Assembly (NCBI GenBank): GCA_009602725.1 | Contig: WELB01000141.1 | Location: 289,749-353,748 of the forward strand | DNA from: Spirogloea muscicola | Lineage: Eukaryota; Streptophyta; Zygnematophyceae; Spirogloeales; Spirogloeaceae | DNA: 64,000 bases | Reading direction: 5' to 3' | In this document: piece after piece, positions 1,165-58,850 of the stretch | How positions within the stretch are numbered: the stretch's first letter is position 1 | Layout: each line of letters begins with the position of its first letter | Made by a program: the position numbers and the translations under genes | Notes under the pieces: model-generated | The model's database searches: none | The model's input: the letters and a program-made list of their open reading frames with translations, nothing else | Told to the model about the DNA's origin: nothing

Positions 1165-1718
1165 GTGAGTCATGCAACCCGCTGCTCTGCCGGATGGTCG
1201 GGCGTCTGTGTGCTTCTGACATATGGCAGTCGAGGACTGTCTGAGGGTGTGATGACCCCGCCGCTTCGCTTCGGTGGTCTTTGACTCCATGTGCACACCT
1301 TTGGCACTGTGCGCTGCTATTGCTTAGAGCGCATAGCAAGTTGCTGTGCTGTTAGGTGCCAGGAGCAGGTGTACCTCATAGTCTAATTTCAGGATACTTC
1401 GCATAGATACTCTTACTAGCAAGCGCAAAGCTTTTTCTACGGACGTCGTGGCTAATCTCTAGCCTGGTTCAACAGCGTCAGATTGTCATAAGAAACATCA
1501 TTGTGATCAGAAACAGTACCTACTTTGGCCTTGTTACGAGCCCTCAGCTTGAGCAGTTGCGCGTCGTCTATGTATTGTTTCTTGTCATGTACCAATCTTA
1601 ATGTCTGACATGCATGAGGCCTCGTGGTTTGACTAGACATTTGTGCATTTCGACATGTATAAGTGGCTTCGTCATGCCCTCTGACTGTCTTGCCCTGCCT
1701 TATAATCTTCAACAACAG
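1165..1718 (+). other. Probable 5' leader intron of the AdoMetDC-ODC transcript
   Basis: The donor caaa|gtgagt at 1165 and the acceptor aacaacag|gc ending at 1718 bracket a stretch with many stray ATGs that would be harmful in a leader. Removing it places the tiny uORF 8 nt into the next exon. Plant AdoMetDC genes are known to carry leader introns. The exact borders are inferred. Confidence 0.5.
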
Positions 1719-1725
1719 GCACTGA

Positions 1726-1734
1726 ATGACATAA
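1726..1734 (+). promoter_or_regulatory. Tiny uORF (Met-Thr-stop) overlapping the conserved AdoMetDC uORF
   Basis: ATG ACA TAA. The last A of its stop codon is the A of the next ATG (taATGgag), a 1-nt overlap. Land-plant AdoMetDC mRNAs carry just this arrangement of a tiny uORF overlapping a small uORF by one base. There the tiny uORF is thought to take up scanning ribosomes when polyamines are low, so that the repressive small uORF is bypassed. Recognition rests on position and overlap, since three codons carry no sequence signal of their own. Confidence 0.85.
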
Positions 1735-2258
1735 TGGAGTCAGCATCAAGCGAAAAGGACTCTAGTAGCAGTAGTTCCATGCAGTACGAGCTGCCTCTTG
1801 GGTACGTCATTGAGGACGTACGCCCTGACGGAGGAGTAGACATCTTCCGTTCGGCTGCTTACAGCAACGTAAGCTATCCTTACACCCCTGTGCATGTATG
1901 TCGTTCGAGTGATAAGTTGATCAGCTGCTAAATAATCAGTTCTAAGTGACGTGAAGAAGCATTAGAAGCAGCTGTTGTAGGCGTCTCACTTGAGGTGGTC
2001 ATGTAGTAAAGTATCTGATGTCGTTGCATGATGCTCGTGCTCATGAGTCAGTGTCAAGACTTGCCACTGGTGACAGTAGACAAGCTATTTTGCACTCCTG
2101 TGTGGTGGAAAGTTTCCTTGGGCGTGGGTGGTCGTGTTGCACGATGCTTTGTCTGCACAATCATAGTCAGGAGAAGCTGAGTGGCAAAGGAGCCTTATTT
2201 ATTTTCTTACTAACAATGTGTCTTCATTCACTTGCAGTGCGTTCGCAAGCCATCCTGA
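1734..2258 (+). CDS. Conserved AdoMetDC small uORF (51 aa, spliced)
   Basis: Exon 1734-1868 gives 45 codons that include PLGYVIEDVRPDGG and FRSAAYSN. A phase-0 intron (AAC|gtaagc to cttgcag) joins 2238-2258, which adds CVRKPS and a stop. The product is 51 aa. It matches the land-plant small uORF peptide, whose hallmark blocks are LGYSIEDVRP, FRSAAYSNC and the RKPS C-terminus, at nearly every conserved place. In plants this peptide stalls ribosomes when spermidine or spermine is high and shuts off the main ORF. Between its stop (2258) and the main ATG (2359) there are 100 nt without an ATG, which suits reinitiation. Left unspliced, the frame would run on to a different C-terminus, so splicing inside the uORF is needed for the conserved end. 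Confidence 0.93.
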
Positions 2259-2358
2259 TATTCAGCTAGTGGTGTACAACTTATTGCTCACGTGCCGAGG
2301 GCATACCTAGGCGGCCCACCTCCCACACCTGTGGGGTCCTCCATTTGCTGCCTCAGAC

Positions 2359-5349
2359 ATGGGGATCCTGTCACAGCAGGATGTGGAGGGGGGCGCTGCT
2401 CATGCGCCATGCTCGCTGCCCTGCTTCGGCTTTGAGGGCTTTGAGAAGCGGTTGGAAGTGGAGTTTTCTCCTGCGCCCTTCTTGAGCAACAACAATAACA
2501 AGGCTGGCCTGCGGGCGCTGTCTCGCGCAGCCATTGATGGCTTCCTCGGGGCTGCTGAATGCACCATCGTCTCGCAGCTTTCCAACGAGCTCATGGACTC
2601 GTATGTCCTTTCTGAGTCCAGCCTCTTCATCTACCCTCACCGGGTCATTGTCAAGACCTGCGGCACCACACGGCCTCTGCAGAGCATCCCATTGCTGCTG
2701 GAAAGTGCGGCGGACTTGGGCATGGCGCCCATGCGATGCAAGTATACACGCGGCTCCTTCCACTTTCCCGAGGCCCAGCCATATGGTGGCAATTTTGCAG
2801 AGGAGGTGAAGGTCCTGGAGGAGCATTTTGGCCACTTGGGGTCTGGTGGTCAATCATATGTGCTGGGGAACACACTTCAATTGCCCAACTGGCATGTGTA
2901 TAAGGTCAGCGCTGAGCAGGCGGCAGGCTGCAAGCCCCTGTACACCTTGGAGATTTGCATGACCAAGCTGGACCGCAAAGTGGCCAGCCAGTTCTATCAG
3001 GGTGCAGGCTATGACTCCCCGGCGGCACTCACCAAGGCCTCGGGGATTAGGGATCTGCTCCCGCTATCGGACATCAATGACTATTGCTTCGAGCCCTGCG
3101 GGTACTCCATGAATTCGATCGAGCAGGCGTCTCATTCAACCATCCACATCACGCCTGAGGAAGCCTTTAGCTATGCTAGCTTCGAGACCCAGGGGTATGA
3201 CGCGGAAAATGTGCAGCTGGGGGAACTTGTCAAGCAGGTGGCTGAAACTTTCAAGCCTGGCTGCTTCTCGGTGGCCTTGCATGCCACTGGCCTATTCAGT
3301 ACCACAGTCAAGGGTGACTCCTGGGCCAAAGCTGTTCCTATTCCTGAGCCCTATGTGTGCAGTGGGACTAGCCGGCAAGATCTACCTTGTGGAAGTGCCT
3401 TGGTCTTTCACAATTTCAAGCTGCGCAAGTCAGTGGAAGCAGGGCAAGAGTGTGTGCCACTGTCTTTGGCCCCCCCAGAGCCACTGTCTATGAAGCCATT
3501 GCCACAGCCCACTGAGCCGTTTGGTAAGTCCATGGGATATTGCTGTGTGTGCATAAGTTGTGTATGAAGCCGCTGCTTCTTCCTGGCTTTGTGTTTGTTT
3601 CATATCTCCTGCTTGTTACTTGAGCAATTTGTTATCCTATTACCCGTCTATTCAATACGCCTTGCAGTCAGCCTCTACTAACCCCGTGTGTAAGCAATAT
3701 GCAGTCCATATTTCTCATGTGACAGTCTCCTTTGTGGTCATGCGCTCTTTTCTTTTACATGTGCCTCAGCCTGTCATGCCACCTTTTGACTTATCCTTCG
3801 GGCCACACTTACCTTGTCATTGATGGTCTTGTTGCCTTTGCAGGTAAAGCCAAGTTTGATGCGATTGGCTCAACCGTGACTGACATGGACTCGTACATTC
3901 GAGCTGTTGTGAAATCTACCAAGTCTGAGGATGCATTCTACGTGCTGGACATTGGCCTGCTGGTTCGCCTTTATCACCAGTGGCAGGAGGCCCTGCCGCG
4001 TGTGCAGCCCTTCTACGCTGTCAAGTGCAACCAGGATGCTACGCTCCTTGCCGTCCTAGCATCGCTGGGTGCCGGTTTTGATGTTGCCAGCAAGGCAGAG
4101 ATGGCAGCTGTGATGGCTTTGGGTGTACAGCAGGGCAACATCATTTACGCCAATCCCTGCAAGCTCCCCTCCCACATCGAGGAGGCGCGGGATAGGGGCA
4201 TCCGTCTGACAACATTTGACAGCGAGGACGAGCTTTACAAGCTGAAGAAGATCTACCCGGACGCCCGCGTTGTGCTGCGCCTGCGGGCTGACGACCTGAA
4301 TGCACGCTGTCCCCTGGGGACAAAGTACGGGGCGAACATGGACGAATGCGAGCGGCTCCTCGCCGTGGCAGCCTCTCTGGGCCTGCATGTTGCTGGGGTC
4401 GCCTTTCATGTCGGCTCGGGAGCATCTGACGGTCGCTCGTATTTTGACGCCATCGCTGCTGCCAAGGACATCTTTGACATGGCAGAAAGCATGGGTCTCC
4501 CCAAGATGACCATTTTGGACATTGGCGGAGGCTTCACTTCAGCTGGCGGCCATGGAGCAAGCTTTGAGAACGCCGCCGCTGCTATAAATGAAGCACTTGA
4601 GAAGTTCTTCCCTGAAGATCTGGGAGTCAAGGTGAGCAAGTCAGCAATGTTTGCATATAGTGGCTTTGTGGACGTGTCGAAATGTATTATGGTGATTAGC
4701 TTTCTCAGCACTGTTGTTAAGAAAGCACGTTGCCTGGCCTTTGCAGGTGATTGCAGAGCCAGGCCGTTTCTTCACTGAGGCACCAGTTACTTTGGCAACG
4801 CAAGTCTTCGGTCGCCGCATGCGGGGCAGGTCTCATGCTCGTTGCGCAGAATATTGGATAAACGATGGCATTTATGGCTCGATGAACTGTCTGCTCTACG
4901 ACCATGCAGAGCTGACAGTCAGGCCCCTGCAGTGTGCTGCCGCACCATTGGCTGCTCCTGCACCAACTATCAAGTCCACCATCTTCGGGCCAACATGCGA
5001 CGGCCTTGATACGGTGCTGCGCGATGTGTGGTTGCCGCAGCTTGAGTGCGGCGACTGGCTTGTTTTTCCTCGAATGGGCGCATATACGAAGGCCGCCGGA
5101 TCAAGCTTCAACGGCTTTGACACGGCCAACATTCGCACCCTCTACATCTACTCTGAGGAGCAGGGCGGTGACGACGAGGCAGGAGAATCGTTTGAGTCAG
5201 ACGGCGAGGGGACCACAGATGACGACGATGACCGTCATGCAGGGAGTGACGATGCAGACTCTTCTGATTCGTCGCATGCCGTGGGTTTATCTGCTCACCA
5301 CGCTGGCAGCAGCAGCGAGGACGATGAGGATGCATATGACCTGCCTTAG
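2359..5349 (+). CDS. Bifunctional S-adenosylmethionine decarboxylase-ornithine decarboxylase
   Basis: Exons 2359-3523, 3844-4631 and 4747-5349 give 851 aa with all junctions in phase (phase 1, then phase 0). Residues 1 to about 355 are a full plant-type AdoMetDC: FEGFEKRLE near 25, the autocleavage site YVLSESS (Glu86-Ser87, Ser87 becoming the pyruvoyl group), KTCGTT, and the processing residues in EPCGYSMN and TIHITPE. A Pro-rich linker of about 45 residues follows. From about 405 comes a fold III PLP-dependent ornithine decarboxylase: PLP lysine in YAVKCN (about Lys449), FHVGSG, DIGGGF, EPGR, NDGIYGSMNC and the catalytic cysteine in FGPTCDGLD. The last 65 or so residues are an Asp/Glu/Ser-rich tail. 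The enzymes make decarboxylated AdoMet and putrescine for spermidine synthesis, probably in the cytosol. Fusion in this order is known in Plasmodium. In-frame ATGs (e.g. about 3759) inside the 320-bp first intron mean that a separate ODC start cannot be excluded without RNA. Confidence 0.88.
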
Positions 5350-6080
5350 CTTAGTTCAGGCTTAGGCTCTTCGTGCACCTGTCCTGCTAGGTGCTCTTTA
5401 GGGGCCACTCTTTCTAGCCTAGTTGCATGTCTGGCTTTCAAAATCTGGTGCTAGCTCCCCTGCCCCTGCCCTAGGGTGGGAAGCTTGCATGTCTGCATGC
5501 ATGAGAAACGAATTTTACACATTTTTGCAACATGCCAGTGCATAACCGCACGTGATTGCTGGCAATGTATCTGGCATTGCACTGCGGGGCTTTGACATCT
5601 TCCATTGGAGTCAATTGGGAGTCCGGCAGATCTGTTTATGCTCATCTCACTCATAATGTGAAAATGATAATCCTGTCTTATTTGTAAGCTTTGCAGTCAG
5701 ATAAATGCACTAGTGTGTTGTGGACCCACCTGCAATGAGCACCTATACCACCCACCCATACAGCTCTATGCAGCATAGTTTTCTGTTACATATATCAGTC
5801 CACTGTCTAAAGCTCACTGTTGATGATCTGAATGACCACGCAAATTTGTGAAGCCATACAGGCTTGAAAGGCATTGCCTTTGAGGCTCCGCAGCTGTACA
5901 ACTTATTGTCATTGGGCTCCTAGAAGAGAATAAATGAAATGAATCGCCTTGTAACAATTAAAGACTGGTGGGTGCAGGCACTACATAATATGCTTAGATT
6001 TCACGCAGCAACATTCTAACCCGGTGCCTAAGTTGGCAAGGGAGCGGCTAAGGGCAAGGTTCATGGACATGTGGCAGTGA
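5350..6080. other. Convergent 3' flanks
   Basis: This holds the 3' UTR of the decarboxylase gene and the 3' end of the minus-strand nucleotidase gene. TGTAA motifs, the usual chlorophyte polyadenylation element, occur on the plus strand near 5682 and 5950. The choice between them is a guess. No other gene is seen. Confidence 0.45.
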
Positions 6081-9000
6081 TCAGTTGGCGACCTGAAATA
6101 TTTCCGCCAGGAGGTCATTGACTGTGGTCATGGGGCCGTCATCCTGTGAACATGCAACGTATGGTCAGGATCGAGCACAGTGGTCGCCCTGTGCAGCTCG
6201 AGCCCTTAAACCCTCAGTCCCATCTAAAGCAGCGCATGAGGGCTCATTCGAGGCACACAGGCTTGGTTACATTCAGGGGAAAGTCAGCAAGTGTAGCTGC
6301 AGAGAGCTCGGGTCCAGCACACGAAGCAAATTAGCAAAACAAAGGCACGCCTGAGCTCGGGCATCGCCAACGACGTGTACCATACCAGGATGACAATATC
6401 AAAGGAGGCCACATAGGTGTCGAACCACTTGTTGACATTGTCATTCCTGCATCGAAGGAGACAGAATGGCCCTTGCTTGAGTCCACAGCAGCAGCGCAGC
6501 GACAAATAACAGCGCTGGCAAGTTCACAAGCAAATTCTCAGCATGTTGTTGAGGAGCTGCTTTAACGATGCCTGGCACACGTAGAAGATCTGCAAGTTCT
6601 CTGGCTACACATGTCCTGCTAGTACTTAAGCTACTTTTGTGTAAGTCATGGGCTTAGATTAGACATGCTTGATGGCAGGAGAGTGTAGGGACGTGAAGGA
6701 TGATCTCACAGGAAGCCAACTGTGATGCGGTTCTCGCATGGCATGCCATTGGACATGCCCAGGTCGCCGAGGTGGTCCCCAAGAAGCAGGACATTGGTCC
6801 GCCCCTTGACAATGGCATAGCCCGTGTCATCGATGTCGGTCCCCGCCCCATCGTCACAGCTGTCTCCCTCCTCGCCAGGGAGTGGCGCTGCCAGCTCAAG
6901 CGCGTGCTCGTTCTTGTTGAGCACGTGAATGATCCGCCCTGCAAGTCAACAAGCCTCATCCATAAACATCAGATGACATCTCTCAGGGCTTTGAATTCGA
7001 TATTTATTAGACTCAAGCTACGGCATGTCATCATAGACTTCTGGTGCATGCAAGAATCGAGTGCTCGAAGATTTAATCACTGCTCCTTGACTTAGTACTG
7101 TCAAGCTTGTTAAGGAAATGGCGAATTCCTTGTGGACATAGTCAAGAGGCTGAAATGTAGCAGCTTGCATCAAGGTCGGCAGCCGCTTCTAACAGACCTC
7201 TGAAGGTGGTCAAGTTGCCAGCATCATCGAAAACCATGCGATTTGAGACTACGCGGATGTTGGAAAATGTGCGGTGCAACTTCTGCCGCACCACCTGCGG
7301 GGCCGCTTTACATGTACAAACTGAGAAAGATTCTGGAGCAGCATGCCCAAGCAGGCAGAGCAGAAAGTCTGCACACTTTGCATGCCATTGCTGCTGGCAG
7401 CTCTGCAGATTTGTAGTCCAGGAAGGAGCTGCAGAGAATCTGCTGCTCAGCATGTAGACTTGAGCCCTGAATCTGAAAACCCATTATCCCTAACCACAAA
7501 GATGGTGAAGCCTGAGGCGCACCTCTTCGATGACGTCAGCGAGCCCAGCTGAGAATATGAGCAGCGGCACATCCCATGCCTGAAGCAGCCGCAAATTTGG
7601 GGCTTGAGTAGCAATTCCTGTCAGGAGCAATTGAACGCTGCACGTGTGACTGCTGGCGACCCTAAGCTCCACACACAGCTGGCTAAAATGAGAAATCTAT
7701 GGACTTAGATAGACACAACACACTGCTTTTACTGCTTGACTAAGTTGACTGATCAAAACAGCTTGAGTCAGCTTGCATGAAGCAAAAGCTCCATTGAGCA
7801 GTGGTCGAAGTAGTCAGAACCGCAAGGGCCTCAAAGAGGGCGACACAGTCGTCCCGGAACGCGATGTTGCTGCCGGCCACGGAGCGCTCAATGGCCGCCC
7901 GTGTCAGGCCGCCCTCGAGCAGCACTGCGTGGCAGGCCGACCACCTACATCCACCGAAGGCCAGGCGCAGAGCAGACACGTGAGCCCAAAAGACTGAAAG
8001 CAATCTCAGATCCTAACTCACTCTCTTAGCTCCAAACCTGCGCTAAACCTTGACTCATCTTAGGTATCTCTCTAGGTAACTCTTGTACTTGCTGGTCTAG
8101 GATGAGCTATTAAAGTGGGGCTGCTCTGAATACAATCAATAGATTGCTTACAGATCCTAAGCAGTCGTACTGCTTAGCTAATCTCTAAAATGGTCTGCAA
8201 TCAGGGCTTACTGGTGAAAGAGTGCAGAGCTCACCACTCGTCCATGAGCCGGAACTTCTCCGCAAACGGGATGGCGGGGTCGACCTCCATGGGGTAGTAC
8301 TTCTCGTTCAGCTCGCGCCGCCGGTCGTTGTAGCGCGCATCGCCCTGGTCGACCAGGGCATGGCTGCCTGGCAAGACAGCGGCGACGCGCGCGCTTGCGG
8401 TTGAGCTCCCTCGGAGAAGCAACTACAGGGCGGCTCTCGGGCAGCTTATCAACGGCCAAAGCAGGACCTGCTTTACACTTCGTGCAGCCTGAGCTCACAC
8501 GCTGTGGCGTGTTATCAAGCTGGCAACTGAGTACAATAAGAGACTGACGTTTCAAGTCACACCCGTTGGACACAATTGTACACAGATTCAGCGGTCGTTT
8601 CTTCTGTAGAGGGTGTCATAAGGTGCTCAAGGAGCTAGTTGGGCTGCCTGAGAAGGAGACTTGGGGTCGCAAGAACTCACTCTGGCCGCGCCGGCCGCCG
8701 ACCATGAACTTGGTCAGCGTCATGTCGAAGTCGGCGACCACCTGGCAAGGCGGGCGCGGGATGGGCTCTCAGTGGGTGCCGGGCAACGGCCGCTCCAGTC
8801 CAGCAGCACCACGGCGTGACTGGTGGACCAGCCAGCTGCTGCCTCCGCTCGTCCGGCGCTCGTCTGGGGGATTAGGATTTAAGGTTTAGGATGTAGACCT
8901 TCAAGATCTAGGGGTTAGGTTGCATGTATTGGAGTCAAGGCTACAATCTAGGGGTTAGGTCATATGGTTCAGAGTCAGGATTCTAGGGTTTGTGTTCTAG

Positions 9001-14190: not shown

Positions 14191-14447
14191 TCGCTCATGC
14201 CGTCCAGTCGCACGCGGGCCTGCTATCGTTGCTGCTTTGGGTCTCGTCTGCCTGCATCTTTTCCAGCTTTGAGCTACTCTGACCTGATGTTGCTCACCGG
14301 CGGGTATTGAGCTTCCTGTGGTTCCGTCGTATCTAGTTGCCTAGATGCCTAGCTGTGTATTTCCCTTCTTTCCGGCACCTGTTGTGGCTCTTTGGTTTTT
14401 TGTCCGTTCTTTTTTGGCTGGCTTCTGCCAGCTCCTCTTTTCAAGAG

Positions 14448-14564
14448 AGAAGGCGCGCGGGGCGCATGAATTGAAAGGGAGGCCAATTCAAGCCAATACA
14501 TTGTTCAGGCAGAGTCGAGTGCAGACTAAACAATGCTACATAATACGGAGACCTAATCTAAGGT
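14448..14564 (+). repeat. Family-2 repeat copy
   Basis: Starts gagaaggcgcgcggggcgca and contains ccaattcaagccaatacatt and gttcaggcagagt. Related copies lie at 28338, 38428, 43781, 51783, 52190, 57439, 57820 and 62803. In the reverse direction it looks like the 3' UTR of a LINE (see the copy at 52190-52560). Confidence 0.75.
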
Positions 14565-14957
14565 ACAAGAAGAAAGTGCTCGCCCATTGAGAATAGGGGC
14601 TGGAACAACCAGCCCGAAAAAGAATGAACAGAGTACGAGAAGGGGGCCAGGGGAAGCGCTAAGTAACAGAAACAAAGCAGCTACGAGACACTCAGTAACC
14701 CCTGCTAAGCAGCCGCAGATCAGAGATGCTGGGCTCCTGGAAGTGGGTCCCCTGGCCAGAGCCAGAGGCAGCAGCGAGGGCTCTGCCGGCACGAAGGTGC
14801 AGCGCCCGGGCCTTTTCTAAGGTGAGTGTCTCGTAGCAGCTTTTTTCTGTTACTTAGCGCTTCCCCTGGCCCCCTTCTCGTACTCTGTTCATTCTTTTTC
14901 GGGCTGGTTGTTCCAGCCCCTATTCTCAATGGGCGAGCACTTTCTTCTTTTTCTAAG
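14565..14957. repeat. Long inverted repeat (foldback element)
   Basis: The left arm at about 14565-14699 and the right arm at about 14820-14957 are reverse complements over some 130 bp with few mismatches. The spacer is about 120 bp. The arms carry the cgcccattgagaatagggg and ccgaaaaagaatgaacagag modules, which are also seen singly at 35010, 51838 and 52690. It could be a non-autonomous foldback transposon or two copies of one repeat inserted head to head. Confidence 0.85.
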
Positions 14958-15881: not shown

Positions 15882-18821
<2,940 letters not shown>

Positions 18822-28217: not shown

Positions 28218-28468
28218 TGTGAACTGCCAGCCCGAAAAGCTTGACAAGGTTCGAAGGGGCCAAAAAGCGCGCTCTCAAAGCGTGAAGGCACACTCAGCGG
28301 TTAGCAAGGACGCGAGGTGTGAGTCGGGGCCCAAGGAGAGAAGGCCCGCGGGGCGCAAGATATGCAATGGAGGCCAATTCAAGCCGACACATTGTTCAGG
28401 CAGAGTCTAGGGCAAACTAAACAGGGCTACATACTACGGAAACCGAAACCAAGGTGCCTAAGGTGACA
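28218..28468 (+). repeat. Family-3 module followed by family-2 repeat copy
   Basis: Bases 28218-28265 carry agcccgaaaagcttgacaag and ttcgaaggggcc (family 3). Bases 28338-28468 are a family-2 copy almost identical over about 130 bp to 52190-52322, including acacattgttcaggcagagt and aaggtgcctaaggtgaca. Confidence 0.8.
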
Positions 28469-40888: not shown

Positions 40889-43671
40889 TCACCTCGTCAC
40901 CTTGTAGGCCTGAGACATGTACAGGCAACACAGTGAAGTTTTGCATGGCACGAGTCATGCCTTTCTGAGAAGTCTCGCATCAGTTCAAGTGACCAACAAC
41001 AGGTGCCTCGCAAAAGTGGTGAATTGTTGCATCAATGTCGTTGCAATCATTATAGTGGAGGGTGCATCTGGGAAGTGTCGACTTGCTTACCTTCACTTGC
41101 ATGAGCAATTTCTTTGCCTCAGGATCATTCTTGAAGTGGTTGCGCACTGGCTGTCGGTGATGCCGTGGAATGGGAGGGTGAGGCAGAAGTCAGAGACATG
41201 ATTAAAGAGCGGATGTGAAAGCCATGAATAAAGAAGAGGCACCAGATAACGTTGCAAAAGACCAAAATTCGTGCTCGAGATGCAACTTCTTACATTAGTG
41301 CGACGATTACGTAACAATGCAGTGAGTAACACACTGGACTGCTCTCATCTTGTCTACATATATGGGCTATTACTACTCTTACCTGGAGTATCGCGTTAAG
41401 ACCCTTGGCAAGGGCAATCTTAAGGTCCTGTGGGTGGAGCTCGCCGCTCAGATAATCAGAACTGACCTCCTCAAAGGTTGTGTACTCCCTGCCCAGAGAG
41501 CAGCAAGATCTTCTATACTATTACTATTTAGCATGAGACAAACTTGGAGTAGGTCATATTCACTTCTAAGTAACCTATGCATTGCTTTCTGAGCAGAAGT
41601 TGCTAAAAGGACAGCAAACTGACTTGTTACCGCCGTGCAGCTTGCTTCGCTCAATGAGGAGCTTCCCAAAAGTGGGCAGAATTATGTTACTGCACATAAG
41701 CAACGCAAGGGTTGCCTTCCAGCACCTTTTCTGGGCAGAAGGCTTTCTTGATTTTCACATTGACTTCAGCCTGCACATCCAACAGCACTGCACAGGACTT
41801 GATATGTGGATATAGCAGATGCAGCAGAGCACTGGGAAAGTGCCGCATGCTCAGATGTGCTGGTCATTGACCAACAGACAGGGTCTATTGCCTACAGCCA
41901 AGGCAGGGCCGCTAGAGCAGATCCGGCAAGTCTGTGGGAGCGTATAAGCAAGGGCAGTTGCAAGACTCAGGACCTCTTCATCCTCCATGAAGATAGCGGA
42001 ATTTGGGTCACTCTTGGACATCTTTTCTTGCCCTTGCAAAAGACCGGGAAGCATATCTGCTGACTTGTCAAGGGCTGTCACAGCACTGCTGCAGGAACAT
42101 CCTTATCTTTGCACCCTACATTCAGAGGCATAAGCAAATGGGGATTGCAAGAAGTGTATGCCAAAGCCGTAGTGCAGCATTGATCATTGCGGATACGATG
42201 GGAGAGGATGATGGGCTTGTTTTTCCGTTTGATGTCATCGCAGTACTCTCGTGCTAGGACATTGACTTTGCGCTGGTCCATTCCCAGCTGGCAGATGTCC
42301 GCCTGCACTGCACCGCGTAGGCAGCTCAGCGGCAAATGGAAGTAGCTAACTTGCAGCAGCAAAGTCCAATAAATATTAGAGCATGGTGTGGTCTTGACGT
42401 GTTCAGACGGAGTGGAGACATCTGGGCCTCCATCTGGACCACTACAAGCAAGGCCTGAGGTTGACAGGAATGCATGCACCAAAACTCAAGCCAGGATCGC
42501 AGGGTCACCTTGAGGAAGAAGATGTCCGCACACTGCATGCACGGATAAAAGATCTGGGCTGCCGACAGGTCGTCCTGCTCACTCCTCCCCATGATTTGCG
42601 AGCATCTGCCGCCCAGCCCCACCAGGCTGTCTTTACTGCCTGCCCTAGCGATAACTGAGCGGCTCCCGTACACTCGTGTCTCAAAGCTCGCAAACGAACT
42701 CGCGCTCGGTCGTCTGACCTGATGATGCGTGGTAGCTTGTTGCGTGCAGCAATATCCATGACCAGCGGCCAGTATTCCCCCGCCTTGGACGTGATCTCCT
42801 CGGACGACCACAGGAATTGGACACGCTCCAAGTCCATGCCGGCGGCTTTCCAGACCTCGATCATGTAGCGCCCGACGGTCTGGATCTTCTTGAGGTCGCC
42901 CCCCATTTTGTTGTTGAGCTTGGCGAACCAATCGGCCACCCAGAACTTGAAGATGCAGCCAGCCCCCGTCAGCTTGTTGACGTTCAACGCCTTCATGACG
43001 CCCTGCGAGGAGCAGACTGCCATGCAAGGGTCACGACTGTTCGAGTCAAACGTCCAGTTTAGAGGAGCCAAGGCCGTTCTGGGTTTGGGGTCCTAGGTTC
43101 TGGGTTTTGGCTACTTGGGTCCGTGCTTGAGGACGAGGCCACAGGAAGGTAGAAGCATGAGGACGAGCGCGCTCAGATCAGTAGCAACCCTATACATGAG
43201 GGCTCCATGAGCTCCTGATTTGCCTAAGCCCGACAATGGGCAGCACGAGAGGCGCCGAAAGCAAGCCAAGCAAGCCAGAGGCTAAGGCAGTGGGGGCGAG
43301 CGCAGGCTTCACCTGGGCAATGTGCATGCGCCCGGACGGCTCGAAGCCGTCGTAGCAGACGGGGTCGGGCTTGCGGAGCAGCAGCTGCTGCAGCTCCTCC
43401 TCCTGGATGCACTCCTCGCCCACACTGCGCACCTGCGCAAACCGCTCCTCCGGCAACAGCCTGCGGCGACGGCAACGCGGGCGCCGGCGTTGGCGACGGA
43501 CAAGTGCGCCACTGCGACGCCGCGGCGCCGAGAGCCCGGCGTTCCCCGTCGGTGCACGGGGCGCTCGCCTGCCAGCCGCCGCCGCCACCGCAGCCGCCGC
43601 CNNNNNNNNNNNNNNNNNNNNNNNNNNNNGGGGCCGGCCGGGGCGGGGTCCTGCGGCGTGGCGTCCGCCAT
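40889..43671 (-). CDS. Cytosolic tyrosyl-tRNA synthetase (eukaryotic/archaeal type)
   Basis: Charges tRNA-Tyr. The minus-strand ATG at 43671 gives MADATPQDPAPAGP before an N gap. Then exon 43460-43313 (ERFAQVRSVGEECIQEEEL, CYDGFEPSGRMHIAQ; GRMHIAQ is the class I HIGH-like motif), exon 43002-42719 (VADWFAKLNNKMGGDLKKI, YWPLVMDIAARNKL), exon 42605-42509 (QIMGRSEQDDLSAAQIFYP), exon 42302 to about 42200 (ADICQLGMDQRKVNVLAREY) and an exon with LPGLLQGQEKMSKSDPNSA (KMSKS loop). Next follow AEVNVKIKKAFCPEKVLEGNP (about 41780-41690), EYTTFEEVSSDYLSGELHPQD, PVRNHFKNDPEAKKLL and a tiny last exon 40909-40889 that encodes AYKVTR-stop. The order matches the plant cytosolic enzyme, which has no EMAP-like domain. 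The 3' end faces the bHLH gene at a distance of about 400 bp. Confidence 0.93.
43075..43130. repeat. Degenerate TTTAGGG-like tract in TyrRS intron
   Basis: Contains ctgggtttggggtcctaggt and ttctgggttttgg, weak telomere-like variants, between exons 43460-43313 and 43002-42719. Confidence 0.4.
43602..43629. other. Assembly gap (28 N) in the TyrRS first exon or intron
   Basis: The gap follows ccgccgccaccgcagccgcc, again a CCG tract. Confidence 0.99.
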
Positions 43672-51782: not shown

Positions 51783-52790
51783 AGGCGCGCGGAGCGCATG
51801 AATGAAAGGAAGGCCAGTTCGAGCCAACGCATTGTTCAGGCCCCCTTCTCGTACTCTGTTCATTCTTTTTTGGGCTGGCTTTTCCAGCCCCTATCCTCAA
51901 TGGGCGAGCACTTTCTTCAGGCAGAGTCTAGTGCAAGGGGGTATGGTTTAGGGTGTTGGGTTTAGTGGGTTAGGGCTTTTCACAGCGGGGGCTCTGAAAG
52001 GAAAAAACAAGGTCCAGAGCCGAAAGGCGCTCAAATTACCGCGAAGCTCAGAAAGCGGGTAACCAGGGAGGCCGACAGCCCGCTAACGGACGTGGTACAA
52101 TACAGACGTCTCATCTCTGTTGGGCTCACCGCGACGCCGGCGGCCGAAGCTTCGCTTGCGAGTGGCGTTACGACTGTGACATGTGACGAGAGAAGGCGCG
52201 CGGGGCGCATGAAATGAAATGGAGGCCAATTCAAGCCGACACATTGTTCAGGCAGAGTTTAGGGCAAACTAAACAGGGCTACATAATACGGAAACCCAAA
52301 CCAAGGTGCCTAAGGTGACATCAGTACCCACGGGTGAGCATAAATAAATCCGACAAGCTAACTTGGGGAGCTGGAGCGCCGCCACGAAAGCCGGAGGCCT
52401 GACTTAAAGCGCGCCCTGCACGTTGATGAAGAGCCAATGCTTGCGAGCGCTGCAAACGAGAGAAGAAGACGAGAGAAGAAGTGGCACTCCCAATGGGGGC
52501 AAGGGCTGTGACAAGAGAGCATTGAGGCGAGGCAACAATTGTCCAGCTTAGAATTGGCTCTCCCAATGGGGGCAAGGGCTGTTGAAAGCCAGCCCGAAAA
52601 GGATTGACAAAGGTTCGAAGGGGCCGAATGACGGAGGTGCCTAAAGCGCTAAGCAGCTACGAAGGGGCCTGAAGATGCTATGTAAGAGGAAGAATGAGCT
52701 CGCCCATAGAAGAGGGGCTGGCAGAAGCCAGCCAAAAAAGAATGGACAAAATCCAAAGAGCTACAGGAGAACGGGGGTGGATGGACCACT
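51783..52790. repeat. Nested repeat cluster: families 2 and 3, inverted-repeat arm and LINE coding end
   Basis: 51783-51842 is family 2. 51838-51925 is an arm of the 14565 inverted repeat (ccccttctcgtactctgttc), after which family 2 resumes briefly (ggcagagtctagtgcaaggg). Bases 51935-51980 are TTTAGGG-like. 51985-52030 is family 3. 52190-52322 is a family-2 copy nearly identical to 28338-28468. 52323-52575 read on the minus strand gives a LINE-like coding end (ALALHQRAGRALSQASGFRGG to a stop at 52321), so family 2 lies where its 3' UTR should be. 52560-52640 and 52690-52760 are further family-3 modules. One insertion has landed in another. Confidence 0.65.
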
Positions 52791-57154: not shown

Positions 57155-58475
57155 ATTTTGGCCTAGGCCAAATTATTGTACAGGCTATTCTTCGTCCATA
57201 GATTAATGCGCAGCGCGCGCCTTCTCTCTCTTTGTGAGAAGGCACATGGTTGTTGGAAGCCGAACCAGCGGCGGCATGGGCGTTGGCAAGAGAGAAGGGT
57301 GGAAGATGTGTGTATTAAGAGATGGGGAGGCCATGTGTGGCCAAGTACAAAGGCAAGCACATTGACAAAGAGAAGGGGGATATCGTGTATTTGAATCGAA
57401 GGCCAATATGGCCAAGTACAAAGGCAAGCACATCTAATGAGAAGGCGCGCGGTGCGCATGAAATTGAAAGGGATTCCAATTCTAGCCTTACAAATGTCCT
57501 GTTAACTGGGTAATGAGCTGGCAAGAGAGAGGAAGTACTCTCTGGCAAGAGAGAGGAAGTACTCCTGTTTGCAGCGTGCTCAGTCTAGTGCCTTGCACTA
57601 GAAAGCTGGGCGAGCTCTAGTAGGTGGCAGAAGGGCTCCGTTCCTGGCATCTAGTATTCATGCATCGAGTAGTGACCTTTATGTTTTGACCCGTGGTTAT
57701 TGAGCGGGTCAATCTGCTGTAGGTTATGTAGATTTTTAGATGTGCTTGCCTTTGTACCTGGCCATTTGGCCTACATTTCTTTCTAATACACGATCTTTTA
57801 TCCTCTGGCCAGACGAGAGAGTAGGCACGCGGTGCAGATGAAACAATATGGAGGCCAGATCAAAGCCGAATGGTTGTGCAGGCGAAAGCGAGTGCAAACG
57901 GTGGGGTTAATTATCAACGAAGCTCCTATGCTGAAGAAATTCCGTGTATTAGAAACAAATGTAGGCCAAATGGCCAAGTACGAAGGCAAGCACATCTAAA
58001 GATCTACATAACCTACAGCAGATTGACCCGCTCGAATAACACGGGTCAAAATATAAGGTCACTAATCGATGCATGAATACTAGATGCCAGAAACGGGAGC
58101 CCTTCTGCCACCAACTAGAGCTCGCCCAGCTTTCTGGTGCAAGGCACTAGCCTGAGCACGCTGCAAACAGGCTGAAACTCGTCGTCGCAAGAGCGACAGA
58201 TATGCAGCTGGCAAGCCCATCTCAGCCGGAAACACATCTGCACGTCGAGTGTAGCCTAGGCTGGCAATGTTTCGAAGAAGCGTGTGGAAACGAGGACCCA
58301 GACAGCCAAAGAAAAAGATCGTGTATTAGAAAGAAATGTAGGCCAAATGGCCAGGTACAAAGGCAAGCACATCTAAACATCTACATAACCTACAGCAGAT
58401 TGACCCGCTCAATAACCACGGGTCAAAACATAAAGGTCACTACTCGATGCATGAATACTAGATGCCAGGAATGGA
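57155..58475. mobile_element. Cluster of LINE 3' ends and family-2 copies in both orientations
   Basis: 57155-57235 is family 2 on the minus strand. 57300-57430 holds two tandem LINE tail units on the minus strand (gccaagtacaaaggcaagca twice, about 60 bp apart). 57439-57515 is family 2 on the plus strand and matches 62803-62885 almost base for base. 57520-57560 holds a duplicated ctggcaagagagaggaagta. 57560-57800 is a long family-1 3' end on the plus strand, and 57820-57910 is family 2. 57955-58170 and 58335-58470 are family-1 3' ends on the minus strand that share tgtattagaaa.aaatgtaggccaaatgg and the cgatgcatgaatactagatg end. The copies near 57655-57800 and 57955-58090 therefore face each other as an inverted pair. 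Confidence 0.75.
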
Positions 58476-58850
58476 GCCAAAGATGAAGGTGGGCCGAGGC
58501 GGAGCTATACGAAAGGCGCCGCCGCCAGCGGCTCGTATTCCCGCCCAGTCGGCATCCGCCACCAACGGCGCTCTTTCGAGCCTCGGAGCACCGGCGTCGG
58601 TCCAGTGAGGCCCGCTGCCGCCGTCGCCGCCGCCGCAAACCTCGCCGGTGCTGTCGCTGCTGCTGCGCGGCCGCCGCAGGCCAGCGGGCAGGCAGGGCCA
58701 AGTGGTGGCGGGAACTGCGCAGCCGACAGTGCCGGGCTCAGCGGTGGCACAGCTGTGAGCGGCTGTACATCTAGCAGCCGCCGGTCACCCTGGCGGCGTC
58801 GCGAGGCGGCGCCCCCGTGCTCGGCCAGCGGCGCCAGCCGTGGCTCCCTG
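58476..58850. other. Promoter and leader of the LCB2 gene
   Basis: GC-rich with several ccgccgcc stretches at 58615-58680. The frame of the downstream gene is open here without an ATG, so it is treated as leader sequence. Confidence 0.4.

Follow-up and report, generated by a model that had tools for sequence, protein, structure and literature searches.

Plasmodium has a protein in which S-adenosylmethionine decarboxylase (AdoMetDC) is N-terminal and ornithine decarboxylase (ODC) is C-terminal. Here we describe a 64,000-nucleotide stretch of DNA from Spirogloea muscicola (contig WELB01000141.1, positions 289,749 to 353,748 of the forward strand; hereafter the window, in whose own coordinates all positions are given) in which a single nuclear gene of a green-lineage alga, with a probability that we put at about 0.9, encodes a fused AdoMetDC-ODC protein. 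Its likeness to the bifunctional AdoMetDC/ODC of Plasmodium falciparum (PMC3912857, PMC1890295) has limits: the parasite gene is 4257 bp long with six parasite-specific inserts (PMC1890295), whereas the algal gene has 851 codons, a linker of 44 amino acids and a green-lineage upstream open reading frame (uORF) in its leader. The bacterial SpeD-SpeDC proteins also join an AdoMetDC to an ornithine decarboxylase, but both of their halves are pyruvoyl SpeD homologues (PMC10407285), whereas the ODC described here is, by family match, a pyridoxal phosphate (PLP) barrel.

Plant AdoMetDC genes (conserved peptide uORF (CPuORF) homology group 3, PF08132) resemble the algal gene in another respect. They share with it a full-length leader peptide encoded by 156 nt, a tiny uORF that overlaps the leader uORF by one base, and AdoMetDC downstream; their main frame encodes AdoMetDC only, whereas here it encodes ODC too. 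Within the green algae, an AdoMetDC-ODC fusion was reportedly described in Micromonas by Green et al. in 2011. Micromonas, like the alga studied here, appears to have one protein for both enzymes: Table 2 of the 2018 review PMC6356823 gives XP_003057072.1 for both ODC and SAMDC (AdoMetDC) of Micromonas pusilla, and the passages cited do not comment on a fusion. The same source lists separate ODC and SAMDC accessions for Chlamydomonas, Volvox and Bathycoccus, and SAMDC as absent from Chlorella variabilis (PMC6356823). Because a single Micromonas accession is assigned to both enzymes, an AdoMetDC-ODC fusion in a green alga appears to be already known, and the view taken in an earlier sequence-only reading of this DNA, which knew of none described there, is not supported. 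The fresh part is the combination of the fusion with the leader switch; a narrow search of the open-licence literature found no account of a fused AdoMetDC-ODC gene that carries the leader uORF, which is not proof of absence.

Translation of the joined exons yields one plus-strand frame that runs from an ATG at 2359 to a stop at 5349 and encodes 851 amino acids in three exons (Table 1), with the start, stop and length given by the sequence-only reading. Both domains lie in this one open spliced frame with AdoMetDC first, the arrangement by which a bifunctional AdoMetDC-ODC is recognised. The earlier model named a single intron; its length and ends stand, but a second intron (4632-4746) is also required for a complete ODC, because removing just the first leaves stop codons within the ODC part of the frame. 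The 320-bp, phase 1, GT-AG intron at the junction of the two halves was placed by that model at 3524-3843, and our coordinates and ends agree.

Splice sites were scored with a generic consensus against every plus-strand GT (3449) and AG (4591) of the window. The donor of the junction intron (3524) ranks 18th among the GTs and its acceptor (3843) 6th among the AGs, and they are the top-scoring sites within 3420-3700 and 3560-3960, respectively. Together they score 21.0, compared to 13.85 for the next of 25 phase-compatible donor-acceptor pairs that keep the frame open, and the only GTAAGT within 1500-6500 is this donor. For the second intron, the donor ranks 8th and the acceptor 41st. G+C content is 0.45 in the junction intron, 0.45 in an intron of the leader uORF and 0.44 in the second intron, and 0.54-0.57 in the open frames that hold the exons. 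The fusion gene is free of N runs, as are the first 9269 bases of the window.

The N-terminal half matches the eukaryotic AdoMetDC family PF01536 across residues 24-354 (profile positions 3-343 of 343, E = 1.3e-98; Pfam search), with the motifs YVLSESS, KTCGTT, FEPCGYSMN and TIHITPE at residues 82, 99, 244 and 261. Compared with chains in the PDB, it scored 229 bits against 1mhm_A (E = 8.4e-67 for 1mhm), 163 bits against 1msv and 80 bits against 5tvf_B, which we take to be the potato AdoMetDC alpha chain, the human proenzyme and a trypanosome alpha chain, respectively. In the 1mhm alignment, the beta-chain match stops at residue 86 of the query and position 2 of the alpha chain falls on residue 88; self-cleavage was therefore placed at E86/S87. 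Residues S87 and H263 align with altered letters in 1msv and 1jl0, presumably the human S68A and H243A mutants. The alignment contains the features of a class 2 AdoMetDC (a full-length domain, the E/S self-cleavage site and the processing residues), and this half is predicted to process itself and to decarboxylate AdoMet.

The C-terminal half matches the ODC barrel (PF02784, residues 428-661, E = 2.7e-74) and the ODC C-terminal sheet (PF00278, residues 664-762, E = 1e-18) in the Pfam search. These matches and that to PF01536 are far beyond chance and bear out the earlier claim of a complete AdoMetDC and a complete ODC in one frame, and the motifs named in support of it were located. Similarity to ODC begins at residues 396-398 (2oo0 and 7odc, the latter from 398), and the alignment to 1f3t (presumably Trypanosoma brucei ODC) runs from residue 415 with E = 2.4e-104. 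FYAVKCN, FHVGSG, AEPGR, LLYDHAE, FGPTCDGLD and MGAYT occur at residues 445, 576, 654, 700, 731 and 761; compared to 1f3t, the PLP lysine, the histidine, FHVGSG, GGGF, AEPGR, LYDHA and PTCDGLD are all conserved, as expected of the ODC fold. D703, the Asp of LYDHA, corresponds to position 332 of the 1f3t chain, and we take Asp332 of the T. brucei enzyme to mark a preference for ornithine over arginine. This half is predicted to act on L-ornithine. A chlorovirus arginine decarboxylase (ADC) that is ODC-like illustrates that substrate can shift inside the ODC clade (PMC9992855). The linker that separates the two homologous regions, earlier put at about 45 residues, measures 44 (355-398). A match to PF01261 (E = 0.0001) was set aside; it falls below that family's cut-off and overlaps the ODC barrel. 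The protein ends in a tail of 66 residues (5149-5346, plus strand) that is rich in Asp, Glu and Ser, with 24 residues being Asp or Glu.

Upstream of the main frame lie two features absent from the sequence-only reading, a tiny uORF and a small uORF that together span 1726-2258. The stop of the tiny uORF overlaps the ATG of the small uORF by one base (ATGACATAATGG at 1726-1737). Spliced, the small uORF encodes 51 amino acids (MESASSEKDSSSSSSMQYELPLGYVIEDVRPDGGVDIFRSAAYSNCVRKPS) in 156 nt, counting the stop, and it matches the AdoMetDC_leader family PF08132 along the entire profile (1-51 of 51, E = 5.2e-27, 93.9 bits against a cut-off of 25 bits), a full match that was obtained once the 369-bp intron at 1869-2237 had been removed. 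Its stop lies 100 nt from the main ATG. More ATGs occur further upstream, and two of these, at 1614 and 1674, share the reading frame of the small uORF.

This architecture follows that of plant AdoMetDC mRNAs, in which the tiny uORF, 12 nt long in Arabidopsis and 9 nt in cereals, overlaps the small uORF by one nucleotide, and the Arabidopsis small uORF is likewise 156 nt (PMC7503886, PMC2527020). In plants, the small uORF represses translation when polyamines are high, and the tiny uORF relieves that repression when they are low (PMC7503886, PMC2527020). The leader uORF group is known from angiosperms out to Ulva and Chlamydomonas (PMC2075485). The PF08132 leader ties the gene to the green lineage and lends the fusion a regulatory sense; the earlier claim that a green-lineage genome has a fused AdoMetDC-ODC gene has good support, and the leader strengthens the green-lineage part of that claim.

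Table 1. Features of the fused AdoMetDC-ODC gene and of its leader, in window coordinates
Feature	Coordinates	Strand	Length	Description
Tiny uORF	1726..1734	+	9 nt	ATGACATAA = ATG ACA TAA, Met-Thr
Small uORF exon a	1734..1868	+		AdoMetDC leader peptide, residues 1-45
Small uORF intron	1869..2237	+	369 bp	AAC/GTAAGC...TTGCAG/TGC; donor rank 101/3449, acceptor rank 31/4591
Small uORF exon b	2238..2258	+		CVRKPS and stop
Exon 1	2359..3523	+		Complete AdoMetDC domain; residues 1-388 and base 1 of codon 389
Junction intron	3524..3843	+	320 bp	Phase 1; ends GTAAGT...TTTGCAG
Exon 2	3844..4631	+		Remainder of the linker, then the N-terminal part of ODC with the PLP-binding barrel
Second intron	4632..4746	+	115 bp	AAG/GTGAGC...TTTGCAG/GTG
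Exon 3	4747..5349	+		C-terminal ODC, 66-residue acidic tail, stop

Building on the observed gene anatomy, domain content, residues conserved with solved structures and uORF pair, we propose that one mRNA would carry a 5' leader with the tiny and small uORFs, followed by the bifunctional AdoMetDC-ODC frame. The proenzyme would cleave itself at E86/S87 into an 86-residue beta chain and an alpha chain, and the latter would bear the pyruvoyl group as well as, via the 44-residue linker, the PLP-dependent ODC. ODC would dimerise with two AdoMetDC modules. It would produce putrescine while AdoMetDC produces decarboxylated AdoMet, so that both substrates of spermidine synthase would be supplied at a fixed ratio. 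At high spermidine/spermine, ribosomes would read the small uORF, stall where it ends and miss the main ATG; at low spermidine/spermine, the tiny uORF would divert ribosomes and the main frame would be translated. Because ODC is fused downstream of AdoMetDC, one switch would govern both committed steps, and the translational switch of AdoMetDC, which senses polyamines, probably now acts on ODC as well. The whole model, a fused bifunctional protein together with leader uORF control, is in our judgement quite likely. Evenly poised, as we see it, is the further proposal that a single ribosome-stalling point sets the supply of both putrescine and decarboxylated AdoMet, that less separate control of ODC (for example, by antizyme) may be needed, and that shared translational feedback rather than substrate channelling may have favoured the fusion.

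A number of points weigh against this interpretation. Two ATGs, at 3759 and 3885, are in frame with ODC and could start an ODC-only product. The coding score of 3759-3842 (-0.02) is intermediate between those of exons and introns: 18 of 145 exon-3 windows scored -0.02 or less, and the 549 intron windows (3759-3842 included) had a mean of -0.51 and a maximum of 0.18. The junction intron also contains a TGTAA at 3689, one of 35 on the plus strand of the window, and we take TGTAA to be the poly(A) signal of Chlamydomonas. With respect to the leader, the effect of the tiny uORF has been termed controversial (PMC2527020), and polyamine-dependent repression by the uORFs of this alga is predicted by homology alone. 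Our searches for relatives were confined to viral, phage and prokaryotic collections, and there the whole fusion had 0 relatives in viral_contigs from 8 pattern stretches, the DNA pattern of the leader uORF had 0 matches in viral_contigs and in genome_contigs, and the AdoMetDC half had 0/30 relatives in genome_contigs.

The same collections gave 0/12 relatives for the ODC stretch in viral_contigs. Among phage records, four match the ODC half at 27-31% identity, and none covers 80% of it (best 42%). One candidate was rejected: with the AdoMetDC stretch (5 pattern stretches), a single viral_contigs locus, L001, showed a 13-residue match with E = 2e-4 among candidates, which looks like chance, the best tblastn hit with the whole fusion having E = 0.014 over 10 residues.

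The ATGs and the TGTAA bear on an arrangement of two adjacent genes, in which an AdoMetDC gene would end within 3524-3843 and an ODC gene with its own promoter there would start at ATG 3759 or 3885. We give this arrangement only a slight chance of being correct. The unspliced AdoMetDC frame stops at 3565-3567; from either ATG, the ODC frame stays open to 4776-4778 in unspliced DNA, ATG 3885 (residue 403) precedes the region aligned with 1f3t and is close to where similarity to 7odc begins, and the TGTAA at 3689 is in keeping with a gene end. However, the 3' end of one gene and the promoter and 5' leader of the next would have to be squeezed into 191 bp (ATG 3759) or 317 bp (ATG 3885), far from the median spacings of 3415 and 2518 nt between monocistronic collinear genes in two green algae (PMC11291117, a preprint). 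Two genes would also leave unexplained that the best donor and acceptor flank this region in matching phase, and that its G+C is intron-like. The two ATGs, the coding score and the TGTAA would allow a minor transcript for ODC alone but do not make a better main model than the spliced, fused frame.

The origin of the fusion can be read in another way, as one ancient event common to the apicomplexan AdoMetDC/ODC rather than a separate event in the green lineage. The order of the domains is the same as in Plasmodium, which speaks for a shared event. Set against this, the AdoMetDC half is nearer to the presumed potato alpha chain (229 bits) than to the presumed human (163) or trypanosome (80) proteins, and it is preceded by the green-plant leader PF08132. 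The separate enzyme accessions of Chlamydomonas, Volvox and Bathycoccus (Table 2 of PMC6356823) also count against a shared event, which we regard as improbable. Since the AdoMetDC half resembles that of plants and has the green leader in front of it, it is plausible that the fusion arose independently of Plasmodium; linker length alone is weak evidence for independence. No Plasmodium protein was recognised among the PDB matches listed.

Very improbable, in our assessment, is a bicistronic mRNA that retains the junction intron, with a first ORF encoding an AdoMetDC of 402 amino acids and a second encoding ODC reached by leaky scanning. The 191 nt to ATG 3759 are comparable to the inter-ORF spacers of Chlamydomonas and Auxenochlorella (medians of 183 and 40 nt; PMC11291117), but algal bicistronic mRNAs have a short first ORF with a weak start context, a short 5' untranslated region and few ATGs before the second ORF (PMC11291117). 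Here, the first ORF is 1209 nt long, has G at both -3 and +4 and is preceded by uORFs, and 29 ATGs occur in 2359-3758 (its own start counted, and given without an estimate of the number expected). The bicistronic explanation fits badly because its first ORF is long, the start context strong and the ATGs many. An assembly or sequencing artefact joining unlinked genes is scarcely credible: five N runs do occur elsewhere in the window, but a misjoin is unlikely because the first 9269 bases have none, the exon frames are intact, the junction falls within an intron whose splice sites are sound, and, among the self-matches listed, none touches it.

Provided that the fused protein is made, this gene would offer a direct route to asking why AdoMetDC and ODC fuse. 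A simple regulatory reason, testable in an alga, would be that the two enzymes share one polyamine-sensing leader. As an added green-algal case beside Micromonas, the gene would also help to map how old and how widespread the fusion is in Chlorophyta, the leader uORF serving as a marker.

To survey the surroundings of the gene, 20 of the 210 stop-to-stop frames of at least 100 amino acids were searched against Pfam. A probable pyrimidine 5'-nucleotidase exon (PF05822, E = 4e-07) lies at 7145-7483 on the minus strand, opposite to the fusion, and a myo-inositol-1-phosphate synthase exon (PF07994, E = 2.6e-40) at 17097-17483 on the plus strand. A weak match to class I Trp/Tyr tRNA synthetases (PF00579, E = 0.0007, slightly below cut-off) was found at 42329-43030 on the minus strand. 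Among the self-matches listed, a dispersed repeat of about 120-133 bp is present in three copies with 85-95% identity (14445-14564, 28336-28468 and 52188-52320). An inverted self-match (14567-14949, 80%) adjoins the first copy, and the two together may represent a small transposable element. At 57564-58478, the matches listed include a cluster of copies, both direct and inverted, that are about 160-230 bp long and have 92-99% identity.

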